Source of the DNA: a virus
Reading direction: 5' to 3' (one strand)
Length of the DNA: 20,068 bases
IMG/VR virus record: IMGVR_UViG_3300049484_000138
Span: 1 to 20,068 of that record
Shown: positions 5,081-20,068 of the stretch, in pieces
How positions within the stretch are numbered: the stretch's first letter is position 1
Layout of the letters: every line of letters starts with the position of its first letter
Position numbers and translations under genes: made by a program
The notes under the pieces: generated by a model
Told to the model about the DNA's origin: nothing
The model's database searches: none
What the model saw: the letters and a program-made list of their open reading frames with translations, nothing else

Positions 5081-5524
5081 ATGAGAGCTACCAATGAACC
5101 AGAAATAGATGAAATTGAGACCGAGCCGGAAATTGAGATACCGAAGGAATATGCTTCGAGAGAATCTTTCCTCAGCTCTGTCAGTACCGAGAACAATCCT
5201 ATTGAGGATATTCGATGGGTATTTCATGCCCTCGGTGCAAAAGGATTGAAGCCGCAAGATGCACCGAGTACCGGGGCATGGAATCTGCTTCAAACACTAC
5301 AGGGCGATGATATAGCTCTTAAATCTTTTTATACAACCGTTTACCCAAAATTATTACCAACCCGGGCACAACTCGAAAAAGGAGAAAATAATCGTGCTGA
5401 GGATGGAAGAAAACAGTTTGACCTCATTGATCAAATCCTACGAGAGCCCGATACAGTTGCCCCTATACTCTCGCATACCGAAAAGCGTGCGAGAAAACTT
5501 GCTGTATCGAAAAAATATTCTTGA
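5081..5524 (+). CDS. putative terminase small subunit
   Basis: First gene of the virion operon, directly before and overlapping the large terminase, which is where a small subunit is expected. The small subunit recognises phage DNA and regulates the packaging motor. The 147-aa product has an acidic N-terminus with repeated EPEI (residues 7-20). A central folded part follows (PIEDIRWVFHALGAKG, APSTGAWNLLQ, FYTTVYPKLLPTRAQLE), and the C-terminus is basic (HTEKRARKLAVSKK). I recognise no classical helix-turn-helix by eye, so the call rests mainly on position, size and overall style. The ATG at 5081 has no Shine-Dalgarno sequence. If TATAAT at 5053 is the -10 element, the transcript would start only about 16 nt upstream. 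The last 131 bases also lie within the assigned large-subunit frame. Confidence 0.65.
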   Translation: MRATNEPEIDEIETEPEIEIPKEYASRESFLSSVSTENNPIEDIRWVFHALGAKGLKPQDAPSTGAWNLLQTLQGDDIALKSFYTTVYPKLLPTRAQLEKGENNRAEDGRKQFDLIDQILREPDTVAPILSHTEKRARKLAVSKKYS

Positions 5525-7286
5525 GGCCGGATACCGTTCGCCGGAAGCGGCTAAAGAATTGTGGATCGCGTGCAAGCGAGACCCGCTGTTCTGGATAAAT
5601 ACCTTCGTCTGGACTTACAATCCCAAGATGATACCCCTATGCACTACCCGCCCGATGATTACTTATGAGTTCCAGGATAACGCAATCTGGAAAACAATAT
5701 GCTGCATCGTCAATCAACTTGACCTTCATATCGAAAAATCACGTGAAATGACCGCTACATGGAACCTCTTAATGGTTTACCTGTGGTTTGCTCAGTTTCA
5801 TAAGGGTATGAGTTTCAGGGTATGCAGCAGAAACGCAGACCTTGTTGACAGCACTGAAGACCCGGATGCACTATTCAATAAGATTGATTTCATGCTCCAG
5901 AATCAGCCGGACTGGATAATAAATCAAAGCCAGTATAACCGTACAAACATGCACATATTCTTTTATGAGACAGAATCCGGCATTGACGGCTCAAGCACAA
6001 CAAGCGATGTAAGCAGGGGCGGTCGAACCACTTCGATAGGACTTGACGAGTTCGCGTTTGCACCGGAAAGCTACGCAATGCTCAGGGCTTGCCGTGCTTC
6101 ATCGAACTGCCGTATTTATAACTCGACACCTAATGGCACAGGAAACGCCTTTTATGACCTGAAAAAAGCGAAAATACAGCATATAAGGCTCCATTGGTCA
6201 GAACACCCTGAAAAGAGAAAAGGGATGTATCGCAGTATAGATGGCGAACTTAGAATTATCGATGATGAGTTTAAGGGCAAAGTCGTAGATTCCGAAGGCA
6301 CTTCTTATAACTTCCCATTCGATTACCCGTTCAGGCTTGACGGTAAGCTGAGAAGCCCGTGGTATGACAGAGAATGCGACAGGGCGGCACACCCGATGGA
6401 GATTGCACAGGAACTTGATATTGACTACCTCGGAAGCTCATACCAGTTCTTTGTACCGTCCGTTATAGACAGGATACAGGCAGAGGATGTGCGAGAACCG
6501 CTTGTCTGCGGAGAACTTGAATTTGACCCCATAACAGCCAACCCGATAAAATTCGTACCATTTCCCGATGGCAGGATAAGACTGTGGATAAACCTCAGCC
6601 CGGAAGGAAACTTCCCGGAAAAACTTGAGTGCGTACTCGGCGGCGATGTATCTGCGGGAACAGGTGCATCGAATTCAGCTCTCTCCGGCGTGAATAAGGA
6701 AACAGGGGAAAAGGTTCTTGAATTCGCGGAGCCGACTATAAGCCCGGAAGATTTCGGGATTTACTCAGTTGCAATAGCCAAGTGGATGAATGAAGCCTTT
6801 ATGATCTGGGACGCATCGGGACCGATGGGAAGAATATTTGGTAACCGCGTCATGGACTTGAAATATACCTACGTATATTGGAAAACGGCGTTAAACAGGA
6901 TTAACCGCAAGCCGTCCGAGACGCCCGGATTCTTTATGAACCCCGGCGATAAGGCAGAGTCTTTCGGCAGATACCGCAGGGCATTGAAGGAAAGCACGTT
7001 CATTCAGCGAAGTTATGAGGCAAACCATGAATGCCTCTTTTATATCCAGGTCGTAGGCGGTAAGGCAATCGAACATGTGAACGCCATAAATAATCAAGAC
7101 CCGACTGGAGCAAGAGATAATCACGGTGATAGGTGCATCGCGGACGTACTGGCAAATTACGCCCTGTATGTAATGAAGTCGAATGTTATCAATCCTGTCG
7201 AGCCGGAGATACCATTAAACTGTTTTGCCGCTCGCAGACTGGCTTACGAAGCCAAGATACGGAAAGAAGAAGAGGTGTGGGTATGA
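5394..7286 (+). CDS. terminase large subunit (packaging ATPase-nuclease)
   Basis: The motor that pumps DNA into the procapsid through the portal and cuts it. The ATPase half has a deviant Walker A-like SREMTATW, a Walker B with catalytic Glu in SIGLDEFAFAP, and a coupling motif STPNGTGNAFYDL. The nuclease half has the RNase H-fold acidic motifs GGDVSAGTG (I), IWDASGPMG (II) and HGDRCIADVLANYAL (III). I start at GTG 5394 (630 aa), which has GGAG ten bases upstream, although this overlaps the small-subunit gene by 131 bases. ATG 5403 is the next in-frame start. The convincing domain begins at about residue 40 (KNILEAGYRSPEAAKELW), so the true N-terminus could be shorter. The stop overlaps the next start as ATGA. 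Confidence 0.93.
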   Translation: MLRMEENSLTSLIKSYESPIQLPLYSRIPKSVRENLLYRKNILEAGYRSPEAAKELWIACKRDPLFWINTFVWTYNPKMIPLCTTRPMITYEFQDNAIWKTICCIVNQLDLHIEKSREMTATWNLLMVYLWFAQFHKGMSFRVCSRNADLVDSTEDPDALFNKIDFMLQNQPDWIINQSQYNRTNMHIFFYETESGIDGSSTTSDVSRGGRTTSIGLDEFAFAPESYAMLRACRASSNCRIYNSTPNGTGNAFYDLKKAKIQHIRLHWSEHPEKRKGMYRSIDGELRIIDDEFKGKVVDSEGTSYNFPFDYPFRLDGKLRSPWYDRECDRAAHPMEIAQELDIDYLGSSYQFFVPSVIDRIQAEDVREPLVCGELEFDPITANPIKFVPFPDGRIRLWINLSPEGNFPEKLECVLGGDVSAGTGASNSALSGVNKETGEKVLEFAEPTISPEDFGIYSVAIAKWMNEAFMIWDASGPMGRIFGNRVMDLKYTYVYWKTALNRINRKPSETPGFFMNPGDKAESFGRYRRALKESTFIQRSYEANHECLFYIQVVGGKAIEHVNAINNQDPTGARDNHGDRCIADVLANYALYVMKSNVINPVEPEIPLNCFAARRLAYEAKIRKEEEVWV

Positions 7287-11163: not shown

Positions 11164-12195
11164 ATGCCACTTACAGATGCAGCGATTGCTGATATGCTTA
11201 CTACTACCCTTCACGATCTGGGCAGGGGAAGATTTTATCAGATCGCACAGGAAATGGCCGAATACTACGTCATGCCCCGTTTGCTTCGCGAAGGTAACGT
11301 GCGGATGCAGACGAGCGGTATCGGCATTAAAGAAACACTGATGACGAACATAGGCGGAGAATCCAGGTGGGTAGGTCTTAATGACCAAGATACCTACAAC
11401 TGGGAAGATATTCTCACTCAGCTCTCCGTTGTTTGGTGCCGCCTCAATGATAACATGATGTGGGAACGCAGGATGCTCCTTGAGAACAGAGGCGAAGACC
11501 GCATAAATGATGTTATCAAACCGCAGCGAGTAGCGATGATGCTTCGTATCGCAAAGGCGCTCGAGGCAGGGTTCTTCGGAGCACCGGACGCTTCCGATAC
11601 CAAAAAGCCATGGGGCTTGAAGTATTGGATCGTCAAGAACGCTACGACCGGCTTTAACGGCGGGCTGCCGAGCGGGTTCTCTACTGTCGGCGGTGTAAAC
11701 ATCACTACCTACCCGACGTTCAAGAACTATACTGCCCAGTACACATCGGTCAGTAAGAGCGACCTTATCAAGAAGATGAGAACCGCTCACAGGGCTACCA
11801 ACTGGAGAAGTCCTTACAAGACTTCCGAGATGGAGTCCGAGTTCGGGGCAAGACGCCAGATATTCATGAATGAGATTACAATCTCTGCATTCGAGGATAT
11901 CGGTGAAGCTCAGAATGAGAACCTTGGCCGTGATGTCGCTTCTATGGACGATCAGATATCGTTCAAGAGGCACCCACTTATCTACATCGAATATCTCGAT
12001 GATGATACCACAGACCCGGTCTATATGACCGATGTCGAAACCATTAAACCGATTGTGCTGAAAGGCGATTACCTGCGTGAGTCAGACGCGCATTCTCTGG
12101 TGCCTCTCAAACACAATACCTTTGCTGTCGATGTTGACCTGTCGATTAACTTCGTATGCGTCAACAGACGTGCAAACGCCGTATTCTCAAAGTAA
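11164..12195 (+). CDS. major capsid protein
   Basis: Predicted to form the icosahedral shell. The evidence is its position after the scaffold, its length of 343 aa (typical for HK97-fold capsid proteins) and the amino-acid make-up. The N-terminal part is helical (IADMLTTTLHDLGRG, FYQIAQEMAEYYVMPRLL). A loop region follows (GGESRWVGLNDQDTYNWED), then a long helix (RMLLENRGEDRINDVIKPQR). The C-terminal half contains TSEMESEFGARRQIFMNEIT and FKRHPLIYIEYLDDD, resembling the P-domain spine and edge strands. Ribosome-binding sequence AAAGGA lies upstream. The fold itself cannot be proven by eye. Confidence 0.82.
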   Translation: MPLTDAAIADMLTTTLHDLGRGRFYQIAQEMAEYYVMPRLLREGNVRMQTSGIGIKETLMTNIGGESRWVGLNDQDTYNWEDILTQLSVVWCRLNDNMMWERRMLLENRGEDRINDVIKPQRVAMMLRIAKALEAGFFGAPDASDTKKPWGLKYWIVKNATTGFNGGLPSGFSTVGGVNITTYPTFKNYTAQYTSVSKSDLIKKMRTAHRATNWRSPYKTSEMESEFGARRQIFMNEITISAFEDIGEAQNENLGRDVASMDDQISFKRHPLIYIEYLDDDTTDPVYMTDVETIKPIVLKGDYLRESDAHSLVPLKHNTFAVDVDLSINFVCVNRRANAVFSK

Positions 12196-12210
12196 ACGTT
12201 TGAACGTTTG
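12195..12210. repeat. tandem 8-mer AACGTTTG x2
   Basis: AACGTTTG occurs twice back to back right after the capsid stop codon (12195-12202 and 12203-12210), each containing the palindrome AACGTT. It is short and could be chance or a small regulatory element in the capsid-decoration gap. Confidence 0.35.
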
Positions 12211-12246
12211 AAACAGTAAAGCAACTACTTTTTAAGGGAAATAAAT

Positions 12247-13350
12247 ATGTCTTACAGAGCAATAGCAAGATTCGGAAATCAGGATCCTGTTTACAAAGAA
12301 AAGGTCTGGTTTACCGGATCAACGGCACTCAAGAAAGGTATGGGTGTCTGTTATGACCTTGATTACTATACCGCCAATTCAGGTGAGGCGGTAACAGATA
12401 ACTGGGGTCGAAGAGGCAATGTCGTGGCTGTGCCGAGTACCAGTAACAACCTCGCGTTTGCCGGTGTTACCACACAGGCTTATACGGCTGTTACAGGCGG
12501 ACAGGCAATAGAGATTTTCACACCCGGAAGCATCTGTGAAGTTGCGGTCGGTCTGGCAACTGTTATCAACAGTACGAGGCTTACATGCTCCGTCAATAGT
12601 GCCGATGCGGGAAGGTTCACATTGCAGGGACTTTCCGGCAGAGGTACGGCGCTGGCCTTGCAGACCAAAGCAAGGGCTACCGGCGGGGATATTACATTCT
12701 CGTCTATCGATGGTTCAGCGACCTTCGCAACTGCCACTCTTACAAAAACGGGAGTTGGAACTGCCTGCGGTTACGGCGATGCTACTATCGACCCGACTGA
12801 GTTCGTAGTTGTGGTTCTCGGCGGCGCAACTGCTGCTGATGGTGTAACTGCCATAACGACACAGGGCGAATATCCTGTCCTTACCGCACCGACAGCGGAT
12901 ACGATAACTATAGGAACGAATATCGGCACTACAGCCGTGACTTTCTATATTATCAAGAATACATATCCGACTGTTCGGTGTCTGCTTGAAGATGGCGAGG
13001 AAAGCGGTTTGCAGGAAGTGCTTACACCAAAGAATGCGGCTGCCATTCAGAGTATGGTTGGCGGAACTACATTCCTTGCAGGCGGATTGACATTAGCAAC
13101 TGATTCAACCGCCACTCTTGCCGATGGGCTTGTCGAAGGCCAGAAAAAGGCTTTTGCCGGGCTTGGCACACTTACTACCCAGGACTGGCTGCTTACAGTA
13201 ACGAGCGGCTTAAAAACCGTTGGTACTGCCCTTGCCACTATCGAAATCGATGCGGTAACTGACCAGGCTGTTCTTGAATGGCATGGCAATCTTGGCGGCG
13301 GCACGTCCGGATTGTGGAGAATCATAGAAGGAACTGCCACCGAAGCGTAA
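12247..13350 (+). CDS. probable capsid decoration/cement protein
   Basis: Follows the major capsid gene. The product (367 aa) is Gly/Ala/Thr/Val-rich with many predicted beta strands and no membrane segment. The first part (about 1-110) contains VVAVPSTSNNLAFAGVTTQAY and a PGSICEVAVGLATVI segment, resembling the DUF2190-type capsid cement barrel. The middle (about 110-250) has repeated TATLTKTG / TADTITIG strands that look like an inserted beta-sandwich. The C-terminal part (DWLLTVTSGLKTVGTALAT, then WRIIEGTATEA) is another beta-rich domain. Cement proteins stabilise the expanded shell from outside. Ribosome-binding AAGGGA lies upstream. The function is from position and composition. Confidence 0.7.
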   Translation: MSYRAIARFGNQDPVYKEKVWFTGSTALKKGMGVCYDLDYYTANSGEAVTDNWGRRGNVVAVPSTSNNLAFAGVTTQAYTAVTGGQAIEIFTPGSICEVAVGLATVINSTRLTCSVNSADAGRFTLQGLSGRGTALALQTKARATGGDITFSSIDGSATFATATLTKTGVGTACGYGDATIDPTEFVVVVLGGATAADGVTAITTQGEYPVLTAPTADTITIGTNIGTTAVTFYIIKNTYPTVRCLLEDGEESGLQEVLTPKNAAAIQSMVGGTTFLAGGLTLATDSTATLADGLVEGQKKAFAGLGTLTTQDWLLTVTSGLKTVGTALATIEIDAVTDQAVLEWHGNLGGGTSGLWRIIEGTATEA

Positions 13351-13438: not shown

Positions 13439-13693
13439 ATGGCTATTCATAACCTGCCAGAAGAACTAATGTCGGCACAGGCAGATTTTCCCACGTCTGG
13501 GCGCGCACTATACATCGATACGATAGGCTTCATGCTTGCATGGGGCGTTACCGTACCGGGCGATGGTGCAACCGGATACGGGAAGGGATGTCTGTTCCAT
13601 CACACAGACGCAGCAACGGATGCAACGCTGCTCTATGTGAACGTGGGAGATAAAACATCATCCAACTTTGACGCTATAGGCGTTGTCGCATAA
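13439..13693 (+). CDS. small decoration-like protein, paralogue A
   Basis: An 84-aa beta-rich protein (MAIHNLPEELMSAQADFPTS...) with the core GYGKGCLFHHTDAATDAT followed by LLYVNVGDKTSSNF. Its whole length aligns without gaps to the first 80 residues of the next gene, with 48 identical positions by my count, so the two are tandem duplicates. AAAGAAAGGG precedes the ATG at good distance. Such compact LYVNxG domains occur in phage virion proteins near the capsid genes; capsid-surface decoration is the best guess. Unlike its partner it has no Ser/His tail. Confidence 0.72.
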   Translation: MAIHNLPEELMSAQADFPTSGRALYIDTIGFMLAWGVTVPGDGATGYGKGCLFHHTDAATDATLLYVNVGDKTSSNFDAIGVVA

Positions 13694-13712: not shown

Positions 13713-14354
13713 ATGTCCTTACACCAGTTACAAAATCAGTTTACCTCAGACCAGGCGGTATTTCCTACATCCGGGCGTATATTCTATGTCGAAGAGATAG
13801 GATTTCTGCGGGCATGGGGTACCACAAAACCAACGGACGGGACTACAGGCTATGCCAAAAGCTGTCTGTTTACGCACATTGACGCCACTACGGATGCGAC
13901 CTTGCTTTATGTGAACAAAGGCGATAATACTTCCTGCGAATTTATAGCGCTTAACGAAGCTGGAATATCGTCAAGCTCAAGCTCACATTCTTCATCGAGC
14001 CACTCAAGTTCAAGTCATTCGAGCTTGTCTTCAAGCCATTCGAGCTCAAGCCATTCGAGCAGTTCGCATAGTTCGAGCAGTCATTCAAGCAGCAGCCGCT
14101 CAAGCAGTCATTCGAGCAGCAGTCACTCATCGAGCAGCCATAGCTCAAGCTCCCATAGTTCAAGCAGCCGCTCAAGCAGCCACTCGTCAAGTAGCCACTC
14201 AAGCTCTTCTCATTCATCGAGCAGCCATTCATCGAGTAGCCATAGCTCGTCACATTCGAGCTCCAGCCATTCATCGAGTAGCCACTCCAGTAGAAGTAGC
14301 AGCCACTCTTCGAGTAGCCACAGCAGCCACTCGAGCCAGAGCAGTTCAAGTTGA
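13713..14354 (+). CDS. decoration-like protein, paralogue B, with long Ser/His-rich tail
   Basis: The first 85 residues are a paralogue of the preceding 84-aa protein (FPTSGR...IG, AWG, GYxK, CLF, DATLLYVN conserved). From Ser86 to the end (residue 213) the protein is almost only Ser with regularly spaced His, mostly SSSSH pentads, with rare Arg, Leu or Gln. The tail has no hydrophobic core and should be extended and flexible. If the head domain sits on the capsid, every subunit would display a His-bearing hydrophilic brush that could bind metal ions or respond to pH. I chose the ATG at 13713 because it aligns with the paralogue start; an ATG at 13704 is also possible. A good intrinsic terminator follows. 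Function is inference. Confidence 0.72.
   Translation: MSLHQLQNQFTSDQAVFPTSGRIFYVEEIGFLRAWGTTKPTDGTTGYAKSCLFTHIDATTDATLLYVNKGDNTSCEFIALNEAGISSSSSSHSSSSHSSSSHSSLSSSHSSSSHSSSSHSSSSHSSSSRSSSHSSSSHSSSSHSSSSHSSSSRSSSHSSSSHSSSSHSSSSHSSSSHSSSHSSSSHSSSSHSSRSSSHSSSSHSSHSSQSSSS
13968..14351 (+). repeat. Ser/His pentad repeat region 1
   Basis: The coding DNA of the SSSSH tail of paralogue B, 128 codons. Serine is written with both AGC/AGT and TCA/TCG/TCC/TCT codons in irregular order and His with CAT and CAC, so the protein repeat is much more regular than the DNA repeat. The block contains the word CATTCATCGAGCAG (14211-14224), which recurs exactly in the tailspike linker at 17541-17554. Confidence 0.9.
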
Positions 14355-14376
14355 AAGGGTTAATATGTTTTTGACA

Positions 14377-14408
14377 GGGGGCTTGGAATGTCCAGCCCCC
14401 ATGTTTTT
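14377..14408 (+). terminator. intrinsic terminator after paralogue B
   Basis: GGGGGC (14377-14382) pairs with GCCCCC (14395-14400), extended by TGGA/TCCA (14384-14387 and 14391-14394) with one bulged T and a 3-nt loop. A run of five T (14404-14408) follows. This is the best intrinsic terminator in the window and would separate head genes from connector and tail genes. Confidence 0.8.
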
Positions 14409-14435
14409 ATCAATCAAACTCGAAAGGTTAATACC

Positions 14436-14912
14436 ATGAATGAAACAGTAGAATCAATATTTACGCAGATGTTCGCACCGGCAGAGATACCGCAGGAAGT
14501 GAAAACTCTCTATGAAAAGGTAAGGTTCTATGCCGACAGGATAGACCAGCCGATTATGCGGCCTCTCGACCTTGTTCTTATAGCGGCAATGGCAACGCCT
14601 GCCAAAACAGACCTCGAACCGAAACAGGAGAAAGTAATTCCCCCTGCTGTCGATACTTCCGAACCCGAACAAACCGAAGAGGCGACGCAGGCTAAGACGG
14701 AAACAGTTGAAACACTTGCGCCGCTTGGTCCTATGGATGTTCCGGCGGTTGTTAAGCCGCCCCAGGAGATAGAGCTTCAAAGATTGACTTACCATGAACT
14801 TCGGACTTATTGCAGGGATTCTTTAGGCTGGAATCCGAAGTTTATGACGAAAGCCGATCTGATAAACATGGTTGTTTCAGGTGAATATCTGAAACTCAGG
14901 AAGAAGAAATAA
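14436..14912 (+). CDS. hypothetical protein with SAP/HeH-like C-terminal motif
   Basis: 158 aa. The start is the ATG at 14436 with GAAAGG upstream. The N-terminal part is helical (VESIFTQMFAPAEIPQEVK, then LYEKVRFYADRI). Residues about 60-110 form a Pro/Glu/Thr-rich disordered linker. The last 40 residues (LTYHELRTYCRDSLGWNPKF, then MTKADLINMVV) have the helix-extended-helix pattern of SAP/HeH/Rho-N-like nucleic-acid-binding modules. It sits two bases before the head-tail adaptor gene and after the terminator. A role at the portal-DNA interface or as a head-completion protein is conceivable. I cannot name the family. Confidence 0.65.
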   Translation: MNETVESIFTQMFAPAEIPQEVKTLYEKVRFYADRIDQPIMRPLDLVLIAAMATPAKTDLEPKQEKVIPPAVDTSEPEQTEEATQAKTETVETLAPLGPMDVPAVVKPPQEIELQRLTYHELRTYCRDSLGWNPKFMTKADLINMVVSGEYLKLRKKK

Positions 14913-14913
14913 A

Positions 14914-15933
14914 ATGGCTGAATCAACGCTTAACATCACGTTCACAGAATTGAGAACTGAAATCGGCAGATTCTTGGGACTCGACCGGAGTTATGCCAAC
15001 TGGTCAGCCGATGAAATTCTCGATGTAACCGCTTGCATTAAAAGGGGATTGAGGAACTTCTACTTCCCGCCCCGGACTGATAACGCACAAGCCGCCCACA
15101 GATGGAACTTCCTTAGACCGAGAAGTACGCTTGTTATCTGGCCGGATGTAGTAGCAGCCGATGCCAAGACAATCAGCACGGCTGTTTACGCCTCTCCCAA
15201 TACCACAATAACGACAACAACGGCAGCGTTTTACCCGTCTATGGAAGGTAAATCCCTCGTCTGCGCAACAAGCGGCAATTCCTATACGATTGTTTCCTAT
15301 ACATCCTCGACCGTTGTAGTTGTCTCCGGGGATGCACATTTAGAGACTGGAGTTATTACAATCGATTCCAACGATTCGTTCACCCTGCCGTGGGATTTCG
15401 GCGGAATGAGCGGCGAAGGAAACTTCGTTTATGACCGTGATAGTAATAAGTTGGAAGTTATTACCGTAACGAGCGAGCAGCAGATACGGAGATTGAGGCA
15501 GAATGATATAACAGCGGGAACGCCCTACTGTGCTGCCATTGTTCCAAAGACGATGGCCGGCACTTCAGGGCAGAGATGGGAAGTGATGTTCCATAATCCG
15601 CCTGATACAGTGCTTACCCTGCATTACAGGTACTATATCCTGCCGGATGCGCTGGTACTTACCACACTCGAATATCCTTATGGTTCTGCTGCCCACTCCG
15701 AAACGATTCTCGAAAGCTGCCTTGCTGTAGCTGAGAGCCGCGAAAAGGAAGGAGGCACGGGTGAGCATCAGGCAAGGTTTGGTGGATTGTTAGTTTCAAG
15801 TATAGACCATGATAAGGGTCTTGGTGAGGCGATTATTCATTACGGATATAACGGCGATTACAGCGATGAAACTCATAACATGGTCAATGAGCATGATCTG
15901 TTCGATGGGACAGCAACTTTTAACGGAGCCTGA
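14914..15933 (+). CDS. putative head-tail adaptor (T7 gp11 / P22 gp4-like position)
   Basis: 339 aa. The N-terminal part (FTELRTEIGRFLGLDRSYAN, then EILDVTACIKRGLRNFYFPP) and the C-terminal part (SETILESCLAVAESREKEGG onward) are helical and resemble adaptor proteins that form a ring below the portal. Between them is a beta-rich insertion, about residues 60-230 (STLVIWPDVVAAD, TVVVVSGDAH, VITIDSNDSFTLPWDF, WEVMFHNPPDTVLTLHYRYY). A two-helix base with a beta-rich insert fits connector proteins that also contact the tail. The gene is next to the fibre genes, as in short-tailed phages. The assignment is from architecture and position. Confidence 0.65.
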   Translation: MAESTLNITFTELRTEIGRFLGLDRSYANWSADEILDVTACIKRGLRNFYFPPRTDNAQAAHRWNFLRPRSTLVIWPDVVAADAKTISTAVYASPNTTITTTTAAFYPSMEGKSLVCATSGNSYTIVSYTSSTVVVVSGDAHLETGVITIDSNDSFTLPWDFGGMSGEGNFVYDRDSNKLEVITVTSEQQIRRLRQNDITAGTPYCAAIVPKTMAGTSGQRWEVMFHNPPDTVLTLHYRYYILPDALVLTTLEYPYGSAAHSETILESCLAVAESREKEGGTGEHQARFGGLLVSSIDHDKGLGEAIIHYGYNGDYSDETHNMVNEHDLFDGTATFNGA

Positions 15934-15938
15934 AGATT

Positions 15939-16001
15939 AGTTTTGAGTTTTGAGTTTTAAGTTTTGAATTTAACTAACAACTAAAGACTAATGACTAAAA
16001 A
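15939..16001 (+). repeat. nine in-phase heptamers, two repeat types
   Basis: The 86-bp gap between the adaptor and the next gene is nearly all 7-bp units. They run AGTTTTG, AGTTTTG, AGTTTTA, AGTTTTG, AATTTAA, then CTAACAA, CTAAAGA, CTAATGA, CTAAAAA, all in one phase from 15939. AAGTTTT (15959-15965) can pair with AAAACTT (15998-16004), giving a weak AT hairpin just before the ribosome-binding site of the next gene. Confidence 0.75.
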
Positions 16002-16019
16002 CTTCCTGAAAGGATAACT

Positions 16020-16307
16020 ATGGCAAAGCAGATTGAACAGCGAAGCATCGAGTTGGAGCCGCCTCTTGCCGGTGTATCAGAGAACCTGGCCTTTGAACAG
16101 AAGCCGCCGTTTACTACGCCCGTATGCATGAACATGAGGCCGTATGACCCGGATCAGGAAAGAGCGCGAATGGGTCAAAGGCCGGGTACTGTAAAGGCTT
16201 ATACAACGCAGATAGGCGGCGATTATCCTGTGGTAAAGATGACTTCAATATCGAACACGTTTATTCAGCCGGTAGAAGGTGAAGGCGGTGGGGGATTGCC
16301 AACGTAA
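16020..16307 (+). CDS. small tail-region protein (95 aa), possibly truncated nozzle-like
   Basis: Starts after a good AGGA site. The sequence contains PVCMNMRPYDPDQERARMGQ followed by RPGTVKAY. A similar NVRPYD...R.R.GQRPG element occurs, as I recall, near the N-terminus of large short-tail tube (nozzle) proteins of environmental phages. Here the protein stops after 95 residues in a Gly-rich end (EGEGGGGLPT) instead of continuing for hundreds of residues. It could be a shortened relative, a chaperone-like N-terminal piece, or an unrelated small fibre-attachment protein. No membrane segment or signal is present. Confidence 0.6.
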   Translation: MAKQIEQRSIELEPPLAGVSENLAFEQKPPFTTPVCMNMRPYDPDQERARMGQRPGTVKAYTTQIGGDYPVVKMTSISNTFIQPVEGEGGGGLPT

Positions 16308-16308
16308 G

Positions 16309-16995
16309 ATGCCTACGCCTGTTTATAAATTCCGAAACGTTCAGAATAATGGTATTTGGCCTGTCGGGGGGACTTATACTTTAGAAGTATGGGTATGGTA
16401 TCCTGATTTATCCCCAGCACTTCCTCCGTTAGACATCTTAAATGCCATGCGCTACGTTGGCGGATTAGAAATTGGCAACAAAGTTTTACTTCCAGCAGAT
16501 TATATCTTACCCCCGGAACAACCTCCTTATATTTTTGTAGAGTTAGACGAAACTGGTACTGAGGGTGTTGAGATTGTTGGTTTAGGTGAGGAAGGTGATT
16601 ATGAAACTGGTTTTTGGCAAGAAGTTCAGGTACATATTTCCGAAGGTACACCTCTTGGCGGTTACAAATTCGTTTATCGAGGGCTTTCAGGTGTAAATGT
16701 TGGTGGTTACTGGGTCTGGAGTGTGTATGACTATCAGACTCAATATATTGAAATTGCTTTAGCTGATTCAATACCACCACCCCCAGACCCTATCATTCCC
16801 CCTGTGCCTGAAGAAGACCCGGAAGTTGTGAACGATGATTTATTCTGGATTCCCGGACACTGGGACGGTGACGTTTATACACCGCCTACATGGGGAGAAA
16901 CGCCGGGTAATTACGTAGCGGCGGGCGGCGGTCGATACAACCAGAACCTTGTTGTTGCCGGTCGTAATCTTGTCTATTACGAGGAGTTCTCATAA
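16309..16995 (+). CDS. fibre-like tail protein with shared terminal tags
   Basis: 228 aa from the ATG at 16309; an in-frame GTG at 16279 overlapping the previous gene is the alternative. The N-terminus has YKFRNVQNNGIW, a tag repeated at the start of the gene entering at 20034. The body is rich in aromatic residues and beta strands (TYTLEVWVWYPDL, GGYWVWSVYDYQTQYIE). A Pro-rich linker follows (PPPPDPIIPPVPEEDPE). The C-terminus ends with GGGRYNQNLVVAG then RNLVYYEEFS, a tag shared with the end of the tailspike gene. The domain order suggests a modular virion fibre whose tags attach or fold it while the middle varies. The stop overlaps the next ATG by one base (TAATG). Confidence 0.7.
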   Translation: MPTPVYKFRNVQNNGIWPVGGTYTLEVWVWYPDLSPALPPLDILNAMRYVGGLEIGNKVLLPADYILPPEQPPYIFVELDETGTEGVEIVGLGEEGDYETGFWQEVQVHISEGTPLGGYKFVYRGLSGVNVGGYWVWSVYDYQTQYIEIALADSIPPPPDPIIPPVPEEDPEVVNDDLFWIPGHWDGDVYTPPTWGETPGNYVAAGGGRYNQNLVVAGRNLVYYEEFS

Positions 16996-19900
16996 TGGCT
17001 ATAGATGTAGGGTCAGAAGCAATTATCAGGTCGAATGCAGGATTAAATGCTCAGACTATTATAGATTTAGCTAATCCTGCAAATGCTTCTGGTGCGATTA
17101 CTTCTGTCGAGATATATCTGGCAACAGGTTGTTCAAACGCTAAAATTGGTACATTTTACAATACAGGGGGGAACAATTATAAATGTAGAGATTCAGCAGA
17201 TATAGCTTCGATAACGGGCGGGTCAAAACAAACCATAAGTGGATTATCTATAGATGTCCAATCTGGTGACTATATCGGAATGTATCTTCCAGAAGGAGCG
17301 ATACGCACTTCCCTTTCTGGTGGTTCTGGTGTTATGTATGTATCAGGGGAATATTCCGACGCAAACGATGAAACTACGTATTCATTATATTCTGGTTGGG
17401 CTATAAGCCTCTATGGTATAGGCACAGAAATAGCTTCATCTTCAAGCAGTAGTCGCAGCAGTTCATCCCATAGTTCAAGTTCCCATAGTTCGTCTCACAG
17501 CAGTTCGTCACACAGTTCCTCAAGCCGTTCGTCAAGCAGCCATTCATCGAGCAGTCATAGCAGTTCAAGCTCGTCGAGGTCGAGTAGCCATAGCTCATCG
17601 AGTCACAGTTCAAGCTCACACAGCAGCAGCTCGCAAAGTTCGAGTCACTCAAGCAGCTCACACAGCAGTTCAAGCCACTCCTCTTCGAGCCATAGTTCCT
17701 TGAGTAGCTCACATAGTTCATCATCACACAGTAGCAGCTCGCATTCGAGTTCGTCCCATAGTAGTAGCAGTCACAGTTCAGCACCGTCGAGCAGTCATTC
17801 ATCAAGTTCGCATTCGAGTTCATCGCATAGCAGTTCTTCGCATAGTTCAAGCAGTCGCAGCAGCAGCCATTCAAGTAGTTCACATAGTAGCAGTTCGGGT
17901 ACAGGTGCATATACTCCGCCTATTGGAATTCCCGCGCCTCCGTTCGGGATTGAAGAAACATACAGGATGTATGATGACCCTGCAAAATGGAATCCTGCTT
18001 TAGCAAGTGTCGGTGCATACCACGAAAGCGATTCCGGTGGATACTATACCCATTATATCGACTCAACTGCTCCCGGAGCAACGGATACAGGCCGTCCCTA
18101 CGGTACTAAAGCTGATCCGAGAAAAACCATACCACTATCTTTGCCTGCAGGAAGTATCTGTGAAGTACATTCAGCTAACGACAATAAAACAGGAATTAAT
18201 TGGTTGGGAGGTTTAGGCACTGAAGATTATCCTATTTTTTTAAGGGGTCTTGGGGCAAGTGTTACTCAGATTAATAGTTATTTCAAACTTGGAACATATA
18301 CAAACACAGATTATTTTATACTTGAAGGCATTAAGTTCAAAGGAGGTAGTCTTACAGGCAGGTTATATAATCAATCAACACATGTAAATAACCATATTGC
18401 AGTAAGAAACTGTGAGTTTGTTGGAGGTGGTTTACAGGCTAATACAGGTTCAAATCCAAATAGCCAAAACAATATTGTATTTTATAGAAATTCTATACAT
18501 GACTCCGGTGATTGGATGGCTATTTTTGGAGGGGATGAAGATATTGGAGGTATGCAGGTTGGAACTGATGGTTATGGTTGTACAAGTTATGTATGGTTCT
18601 TAGAGAATATATGCTATCATAATCAATATGATGCAATTCAAGTAAGGTCTGGTAATCAAACACCAGATAGTTCTCTCGTTAGTCATCATATCTATATTGG
18701 CCGGAATATTGCTTACGAAAATATCCAGCCTGCCTTTTGGACTAAGACGGCAAGGGACGTCGTATTCTCACAGAATATTGCATATAATCATAAGTACGAT
18801 ACTGATTGGGGTTCTGTTAATGCAGGTTTTGGACTTCAGTATGCACCTGTTCGTGTATGGTACTTATTCAATAGAAGTTATGGCAACCATAACGGATTTA
18901 GATTCGCTTCTTATGGTGGGCAAGATGGGTACAGAGATGAGATATATTGCATAGGTAATGTTGTTTATGATTGCAATGGTTATTCATATTCATCTAATCC
19001 AGATAAGCATGTTACAGAAGATTATGGAACGGGATTCTTACTTAATGCGGCTAAATCTGTAACAGGTCAACCAATATTCATGTTGAATACTATATATAAC
19101 GTCGCAAGCGGTTTTGGAAATCAATTTGGTAATTCTGAAGCTAATATCTTTAACAATATTATTGCTGCATATAATCAAACTGGAAGTCAGGAATCTGGGC
19201 CTGAAGTAGCAGATTACGATGATTATCAACCAGGGCATACAGCAGTGCATTTCGATATATCGGCAACGGCATTGGCATCGTATTTTGATTATAATCTTAT
19301 AGACGGCAGTGGCGGGATTCAATGGGGACAACCTGACGGAACAATGTATGCAAATCTCGCTGCTTTCATAGCCGGAACTACACAGGGAGACCACTGTGTA
19401 GAAGCAGACCCGTTGTTTGTTGACGCTGAAAACCATGATTTTAATTTACAGGCAACAAGTCCGGCTTTGAGTATGTCATTGAGCGAAGATGTTCAGACAG
19501 CACTCGACCGCTTCTTTGAATTATACGGGATAGATATAAGTTCTTATGTTGAGGCATTATTTACATCAGGTATTCAGTATGCACCGGATGAAGCAGGAAC
19601 ATCTTCCTCACAAGGCAGTTCAAGTTCACGGTCAAGCAGCCACTCATCATTAAGTTCGCGTTCGAGTTCGCACAGCAGCTCGTCGCATTCATCGAGTTCG
19701 CACAGCAGTTCGAGCAGTCATTCGTCATCAGGCAGTTCGAGGTCAAGTAGTCATTCATCATCGAGCCATTCAAGCTCGTCTCATTCGAGTTCTCATTCAT
19801 CAAGCTCTCATTCGTCCAGCTCCCAGAGCAGCTCGACAAGCCCGCTTGAGCCTGGGAATGTTTCAAACTTTCCTGCTACAAGAGCTGACGATTATGACCC

Positions 19901-20033
19901 TGACCTTGTATTCGACGAAATTACCGGGACGTGGGTTACGGACGAAGAGCTACTCTTAAAAGGCGGTTCAAGATACAGAACTCAGTTTGTTTGCGTAGGT
20001 AAGTCTCTTATCTATTATGAGGAGATAACTTAA
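16995..20033 (+). CDS. beta-helix tailspike with two Ser/His linkers
   Basis: 1012 aa. Domain order: residues 1-147, a beta-sandwich, carbohydrate-binding-like (SGAITSVEIYLATG, GTFYNTGGNNYKCRD, GLSIDVQSGDYIGMYL). Residues 148-301, Ser/His linker 1. About 302-868, a right-handed beta-helix of the pectate-lyase-like superfamily, with repeated short strands and Asn/His turns (NIVFYRNSIHDSG, VWFLENICYHNQYDAI, IYIGRNIAYEN, IFNNIIAAYN) and the end signature DPLFVDAENHDFNLQATSPA. Residues 870-949, Ser/His linker 2. Then a small C-terminal domain ending GGSRYRTQFVCVG then KSLIYYEEIT. Beta-helix tailspikes bind and often cleave surface polysaccharide; the catalytic residues cannot be picked out. The ribosome-binding site lies in the last codons of the preceding gene. 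Confidence 0.85.
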   Translation: MAIDVGSEAIIRSNAGLNAQTIIDLANPANASGAITSVEIYLATGCSNAKIGTFYNTGGNNYKCRDSADIASITGGSKQTISGLSIDVQSGDYIGMYLPEGAIRTSLSGGSGVMYVSGEYSDANDETTYSLYSGWAISLYGIGTEIASSSSSSRSSSSHSSSSHSSSHSSSSHSSSSRSSSSHSSSSHSSSSSSRSSSHSSSSHSSSSHSSSSQSSSHSSSSHSSSSHSSSSHSSLSSSHSSSSHSSSSHSSSSHSSSSHSSAPSSSHSSSSHSSSSHSSSSHSSSSRSSSHSSSSHSSSSGTGAYTPPIGIPAPPFGIEETYRMYDDPAKWNPALASVGAYHESDSGGYYTHYIDSTAPGATDTGRPYGTKADPRKTIPLSLPAGSICEVHSANDNKTGINWLGGLGTEDYPIFLRGLGASVTQINSYFKLGTYTNTDYFILEGIKFKGGSLTGRLYNQSTHVNNHIAVRNCEFVGGGLQANTGSNPNSQNNIVFYRNSIHDSGDWMAIFGGDEDIGGMQVGTDGYGCTSYVWFLENICYHNQYDAIQVRSGNQTPDSSLVSHHIYIGRNIAYENIQPAFWTKTARDVVFSQNIAYNHKYDTDWGSVNAGFGLQYAPVRVWYLFNRSYGNHNGFRFASYGGQDGYRDEIYCIGNVVYDCNGYSYSSNPDKHVTEDYGTGFLLNAAKSVTGQPIFMLNTIYNVASGFGNQFGNSEANIFNNIIAAYNQTGSQESGPEVADYDDYQPGHTAVHFDISATALASYFDYNLIDGSGGIQWGQPDGTMYANLAAFIAGTTQGDHCVEADPLFVDAENHDFNLQATSPALSMSLSEDVQTALDRFFELYGIDISSYVEALFTSGIQYAPDEAGTSSSQGSSSSRSSSHSSLSSRSSSHSSSSHSSSSHSSSSSHSSSGSSRSSSHSSSSHSSSSHSSSHSSSSHSSSSQSSSTSPLEPGNVSNFPATRADDYDPDLVFDEITGTWVTDEELLLKGGSRYRTQFVCVGKSLIYYEEIT
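17436..17897 (+). repeat. Ser/His pentad repeat region 2 (tailspike linker 1)
   Basis: 154 codons, nearly all Ser with His every fourth or fifth residue and occasional Arg, Gln, Leu, Ala or Pro. It joins the N-terminal beta-sandwich to the beta-helix. Serine codons of both the AGY and TCN kinds are mixed. It shares an exact 14-base word with repeat region 1. Confidence 0.9.
19602..19841 (+). repeat. Ser/His pentad repeat region 3 (tailspike linker 2)
   Basis: 80 codons of the same Ser/His type, with Arg, Gly, Gln, Leu and Thr interruptions. It joins the beta-helix to the short C-terminal tag domain. It shares an 11-base word (CATTCATCGAG, 19686-19696) with regions 1 and 2. Confidence 0.9.
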
Positions 20034-20068
20034 TTGAATCATATAAGAAACATCCAGAACGATGGTAT
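20034..20068 (+). CDS. start of another fibre-like gene (partial, runs off window)
   Basis: The frame opens with TTG at 20034, directly after the tailspike stop, with GAGGAG (20019-20024) nine bases upstream. The first residues are MNHIRNIQNDG, matching the FRNVQNNG tag at the N-terminus of the 16309 gene. It is probably a paralogous fibre component. Only 11 full codons are visible. Confidence 0.6.
   Translation, partial: MNHIRNIQNDG

Follow-up and report, generated by a model that had tools for sequence, protein, structure and literature searches.

Long, periodic Ser-X arrays, in which runs of Ser are interrupted by another residue (X), are built into two virion proteins of the phage described here and occur in many uncultured phages, where the longest reaches ~1,760 residues. 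The arrays are maintained at the protein level, their sites are conserved despite changes in the neighboring domains, and in other phages they are enriched near glycosyltransferase genes. Judged from these genes, the array serines are probably glycosylated by the phage's own enzymes, which would make the arrays long virion spacers and analogues of serine-rich-repeat glycoproteins (SRRPs). To our knowledge, few phages have glycosylated virions. The window, the whole stretch of DNA analyzed here, is the entire IMG/VR record IMGVR_UViG_3300049484_000138 (20,068 bases) and is possibly a fragment. Its mapped features are as follows:

5394..7286, + strand, terminase large subunit (PHROG 5989, E 2.7e-15; distant matches among isolates)
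11164..12195, + strand, major capsid protein (PHROG 9953, E 6e-4; 17 relatives)
12247..13350, + strand, virion protein adjoining the capsid gene, a decoration candidate by position (95% identity with L002; homologues in L003, L004, L012 and L015)
13439..13693, + strand, 84-residue untailed paralogue of the N-terminal domain of the Ser/His-tailed protein
13713..14354, + strand, Ser/His-tailed protein, a candidate head fibre or surface protein by position and variable C-terminal extensions
13968..14351, + strand, Ser/His segment 1 (128 codons, 101 Ser, 22 His), C-terminal tail of ORF 13713-14354
14914..15933, + strand, adaptor-like head-tail protein by position (88% identity with L002; homologues in other relatives of the capsid protein)
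16020..16307, + strand, nozzle-like tail protein, N-terminal part only
16310..16995, + strand, appendage protein with a C terminus related to that of the tailspike
16995..20033, + strand, tailspike-like protein (N domain 16995-17435, central domain ~17898-19601, C-terminal domain 19842-20033)
17436..17897, + strand, Ser/His segment 2 (154 codons, 122 Ser, 24 His), linker between the spike N and central domains
19602..19841, + strand, Ser/His segment 3 (80 codons, 61 Ser, 10 His), linker between the spike central and C-terminal domains

In agreement with a preliminary description of this DNA, which placed more than 360 codons in three long Ser/His segments of two virion proteins, the segments sum to 362 codons in two virion-gene products. 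The near-regular His spacing reported there is equally evident: for segments 1, 2 and 3, Ser-run length has a variance of 0.74, 1.06 and 1.35, whereas composition-matched shuffles give 15.5, 16.3 and 11.2. The observed values are 8 to 21 times lower, and no shuffle in 10,000 reached this regularity. The description needs correcting in that His accounts for only 72% of the non-Ser residues, the others including Arg (13%), Gln and Leu. The proteins have no LPXTG-type anchor; their ends are SSSS or a short C-terminal domain. Pfam searches with ten window proteins gave no match, carbohydrate-active domains included. In the tailed protein, whose start was chosen from an alignment with the closest relative, residues 1 to 84-85 share 60% identity with the preceding 84-residue ORF (13439-13693). 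A model of this 84-residue domain (pLDDT 75) has no PDB or BFVD match at E <= 0.001; a decoration or head-fibre fold was consequently dropped as an assignment, and the label "decoration-like" given earlier to the tailed protein finds no family or fold match behind it. The central domain of the tailspike is tentatively read as a probable beta-helix.

The closest relative is G001 (locus L002), with a capsid protein 95% identical to that of the window. In G001 all three Ser/His segments recur at the corresponding sites, and a different gene holds a fourth array of 605 residues. Between the two spikes, the N domain is 43% and the C-terminal domain 74% identical, whereas the central domain between segments 2 and 3 is unrelated. 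This central domain of the window had no relative among the loci fetched up to that comparison, and the spike N domain as sole query likewise returned none. In L004, the next relative (capsid protein identity 76%), a folded domain follows the 84-residue domain and a Ser-Pro-Ala linker follows a spike-like N domain; in L012, different repeats follow the 84-residue domain; and in L007 to L009 this domain has no extension. The segments therefore sit where extensions vary. The preliminary description had held that its reading would fail if the segments were missing from the same sites in close homologues or scattered among non-virion proteins; G001 retains all three sites, although L004 differs. 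Among sixteen capsid-seeded relatives, neither an array (by the fixed detector described below) nor a GT8-fold protein was found. An arrangement like that of the window is seen in L034 (G007), where, past an apparent capsid gene, a 62-residue protein precedes a paralogue with a Ser/His tail (878-1620); by profile comparison, the small protein of G007 shows no relation to the 84-residue domain.

To survey the arrays more widely, DNA encoding the pattern H-S4-H-S4-H was searched for. Long Ser/His arrays of up to 926 residues, with varied flanking domains, were found in ~12 IMG/VR contigs, and two further hits (L032 and L041) were rejected as chance matches without an array. Across 84,980 bacterial and archaeal genomes/species, the pattern occurs in eight stretches, in which Ser/His segments are short or absent. 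The X position is His in some phages and Glu, Lys/Arg, Gln, Ala or Pro in others, near related glycosyltransferase genes. While X changes between phages, the Ser content stays near constant (76-87%). In the phages of the H type, including that of the window, His makes up 41-88% of the non-Ser residues. Capsid, GT8-fold and GT9-like proteins have no match at the threshold used among 50,697 records of isolated phages, a search in which a terminase query, the positive control, did match. The literature searched, which largely left out subscription papers, contains no matching description of Ser-X arrays in phages, consistent with the earlier statement that no such phage system was known.

G001, G002 and G011 share a conserved set of genes next to their arrays. 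Pfam matches in the G001 cassette identify four kinds of domain (Glycos_transf_1, GT2-like, FkbM methyltransferase and GT9), and a fifth protein matches NDP-sugar transferases weakly. The AlphaFold2 model of this fifth protein (pLDDT 90) shows a GT8-type fold and matches LgtC, GlyE and A64R of chlorovirus PBCV-1. PsrP, a Ser-rich-repeat protein, is a target of GlyE (PMC12656782), and A64R is a glycosyltransferase (PMC4691112). Neither the GT8-fold nor the GT9-like protein has a PHROG match. A further cassette protein, of the GINVDTMDFFY type, is conserved (G001 25190-25834, G002 11791-12441, G011 15999-16676), and the member tested has no Pfam match. Glycosyltransferase genes are present in G001 and in other array-bearing phages, and in many relatives they form a cluster adjoining the arrays; several short contigs with arrays lack the cluster, as does the window contig. 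The window, which has no match to the cassette, stops at 20,068, before the place that the cassette occupies in G001, and we infer that its phage carries one.

The association was quantified from both enzymes. Searches seeded with the GT8-fold protein gave 15 loci, 12 of which contain giant Ser-X arrays with His, Glu, Lys/Arg or Gln/Glu/Thr as X; since L072 to L075 are near-identical, these represent nine distinct cases. In six of the nine, no more than 400 bp separate the GT8-fold gene from the start of a downstream array gene on the same strand. A stricter, fixed detector (Ser >=55%, array >=50 residues, longest frame at that place) recovers arrays in 9/15 of these loci, and two cassette loci (L079 and L080) have no array in their flanks. 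In the L080 record, G032, a 320-kb phage record whose cassette has no Ser array nearby, DNA reads as collagen-like Gly repeats (303925-307892). With the GT9-like protein as seed, arrays are found in 35/79 loci, or 22/43 clusters after clustering at 70% identity, versus 1/65 random phage loci (3/65 with a 40-residue cut-off). The random loci were drawn by an arbitrary 15-mer and total 580 kb, compared with 1,342 kb of GT9-seeded sequence. Comparing the random loci with those clusters whose GT9-like gene has an array no more than 4.5 kb away gives p = 2e-6. Per 100 kb, there are 5.45 arrays within 4.5 kb of this gene, 4.47 at 4.5-10 kb and 0.17 in random loci; because the near and far densities are similar, the linkage may be to the type of phage and not to the gene.

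The GT8-fold protein occurs in none of nine E-array contigs that were found by pattern (8-35 kb; six of the nine under 15.1 kb), three Pfam families tried on the same nine match in G035 only, and none of the three matches in G007 (a Ser/His-array contig of 12 kb). As these contigs are fragments, such absences count weakly. Glycos_transf_1 is matched in all eight array-bearing contigs of at least 30 kb that were checked, four of which had been found via the cassette. Among contigs of at least 20 kb not found via the cassette, the contrast is 4/5 vs 0/5 (p = 0.048).

These comparative data are best fitted by two of the options raised in the preliminary description, a flexible spacer and glycosylation, taken together. 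The (SSSSH)n segments would be long, extended, hydrophilic stalks on virion proteins. Segment 1 would hang from a small protein, a probable head fibre, whose gene adjoins the capsid genes, and segments 2 and 3 would hold the ends of the tailspike apart from an exchangeable central domain. Ser would be the functional core and most likely an acceptor of O-linked sugars, added by the phage's GT9-like, GT4, GT2 and GT8-fold enzymes together with an FkbM-type methyltransferase, and the product may be a mucin-like or SRRP-like rod. The X residue, which is His in this phage and Glu, Lys/Arg or Gln in others, would interrupt the poly-Ser and set charge and glycan spacing. With E-array contigs that have no GT8-fold protein, near and far densities that are alike and a window that has no cassette, the action of the cassette enzymes on array serines, like the stalk geometry, is put forward as a proposal drawn from gene content. 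The broader version, that a widespread mucin-like glycostalk system equips the head and tail proteins of phages with Ser-X arrays, across varied tail types and X residues, and that a mobile phage GT9/GT4/GT2/GT8/FkbM cassette glycosylates them, is evenly poised in our judgment; the two cassette enzymes tested have no match among current phage protein families. If the proposal is correct, uncultured phages use their own enzymes to make Ser-rich glycoprotein stalks that measure tens to hundreds of nanometres. Such stalks could influence how particles diffuse and attach to polysaccharide, how well they are protected and how receptor-binding domains are exchanged. A Ser-X array beside a GT9-like gene also provides a simple handle for finding such phages in sequence data.

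The arrays could instead be unmodified flexible spacers that hold receptor-binding domains off the particle and ease domain exchange, with the glycosyltransferases acting elsewhere. The main alternative of this sort comes from jumbo phages, whose glycosyltransferase gene clusters have been taken to alter the surface polysaccharide of the host (PMC7824862); DNA modification is another interpretation given to phage clusters of this kind (PMC12619734). Retention of the linkers around unrelated spike central domains, occupation of the same sites by a Ser-Pro-Ala linker or folded domain in L004 and by another type of repeat in L012, and the several array-bearing contigs with no glycosyltransferase match are all consistent with such a role. 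Against a plain spacer stand an array density ~30-fold higher in GT9-seeded than in random phage loci and the frequent position of the array gene directly 3' of the GT8-fold gene, and lengths of 600-1,760 residues at near-constant Ser content exceed what it would need. Unmodified spacers are thus considered rather unlikely.

More doubtful still is a function specific to His, in which the regularly spaced residues bind metal or make the chain switch near pH 6-7, both suggested in the preliminary description. His is the main spacer residue in the window and in other H-type phages, and in the window its regular spacing is kept. Arrays of the same architecture near related enzymes, however, carry Glu, Lys/Arg or Gln, and the three window segments lack HxH, the motif with which phage fibre tips bind metal. 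The variation in X led to the rejection of a His-specific role as the explanation for arrays in general; such a role could be confined to the H-type phages. The glycosylated-stalk reading needs neither metal nor pH sensing by His.

Codon-level comparison bears on how the segments arose. Of 40 SSSSH units, 39 are encoded by distinct DNA, and units share codons as often as independent drawing would give. In nucleotide-only alignments with G001 (gaps in 28-31% of columns), the amino-acid sequences of the segments are 90-96% identical, against 61-65% expected from composition, with many synonymous changes; length and register have drifted between the two phages, whereas composition and period are constant. 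The scrambling of Ser codons points to selection on the protein and not on a DNA repeat. Neutral expansion by replication slippage, or an assembly artefact, is barely credible and was dropped: segment lengths do differ among relatives and Ser-rich tracts tolerate indels, but the distinct, independently drawn codons exclude slippage, the conserved amino acids likewise speak against it, and the arrays recur across many independent contigs.

Several known systems resemble parts of the proposed one. In cluster O mycobacteriophages, an O-methyltransferase gene is followed downstream by three glycosyltransferase genes, with reported modification of capsid and tail tube proteins (PMC11600133), and glycans are reported at C-termini (PMC12619734); both papers cite Freeman et al. 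2023 on virion glycosylation in mycobacteriophages. Cassettes of the G001 type similarly combine clustered phage glycosyltransferases with a methyltransferase. The systems differ in that glycans were observed in mycobacteriophages, whereas here giant periodic Ser-X arrays on head-region and spike proteins are the presumed target; and the cassette proteins tested are, at the threshold used, matchless in the 50,697 phage records. The Gram-positive SRRPs such as PsrP share long Ser-rich repeats and dedicated glycosyltransferases, including the GT8 enzyme GlyE (PMC12656782). Unlike these, the arrays belong to phage virion proteins, have a regular S4-8X period and, in the window, come without a cell-wall anchor; homology of the repeats is not claimed. 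In polysaccharide-degrading enzymes of Saccharophagus degradans, polyserine linkers separate functional domains (PMC2386152), as poly-Ser does in the window tailspike. Those linkers lie between carbohydrate depolymerase modules, whereas the phage arrays are much longer, periodic and, in related phages, linked to glycosyltransferases. Finally, a capsid protein of PBCV-1 is glycosylated by virus-encoded glycosyltransferases (PMC7826918, PMC4691112), and the GT8-fold model resembles its A64R; PBCV-1 differs in being a eukaryotic virus with N-linked capsid-protein glycans and no Ser arrays.

Additional features were noted during inspection of the loci. By eye, the window and G001 are podovirus-like and G011 is siphovirus-like, and Glu-type arrays in L087, L091, L095 and L096 lie near sheath-like genes of contractile-tail appearance. 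In the Glu-type array proteins of L072 (10894), L091 (6332-11347) and L095 (1484-4876), Ser arrays alternate with acidic units such as FKDTDDVEW. The nozzle-like protein is a single ORF in L007 (15126-16904), L015 and L017, and is split into two genes with appendage genes between them in L002 (5534-9783) and L004 (12921-17762); in L002, the gene for the C-terminal part comes after the appendage genes. Tandem appendage proteins have a common C-terminal motif of the GGGRW.Q.LVVAG..L.YYEE type (window 16816-16992 and 19845-20030; L004 13758-15558), which suggests a common virion-anchoring end. On the minus strand of the window, two ORFs (541-1251 and 1608-2969) have the look of DNA methyltransferases.
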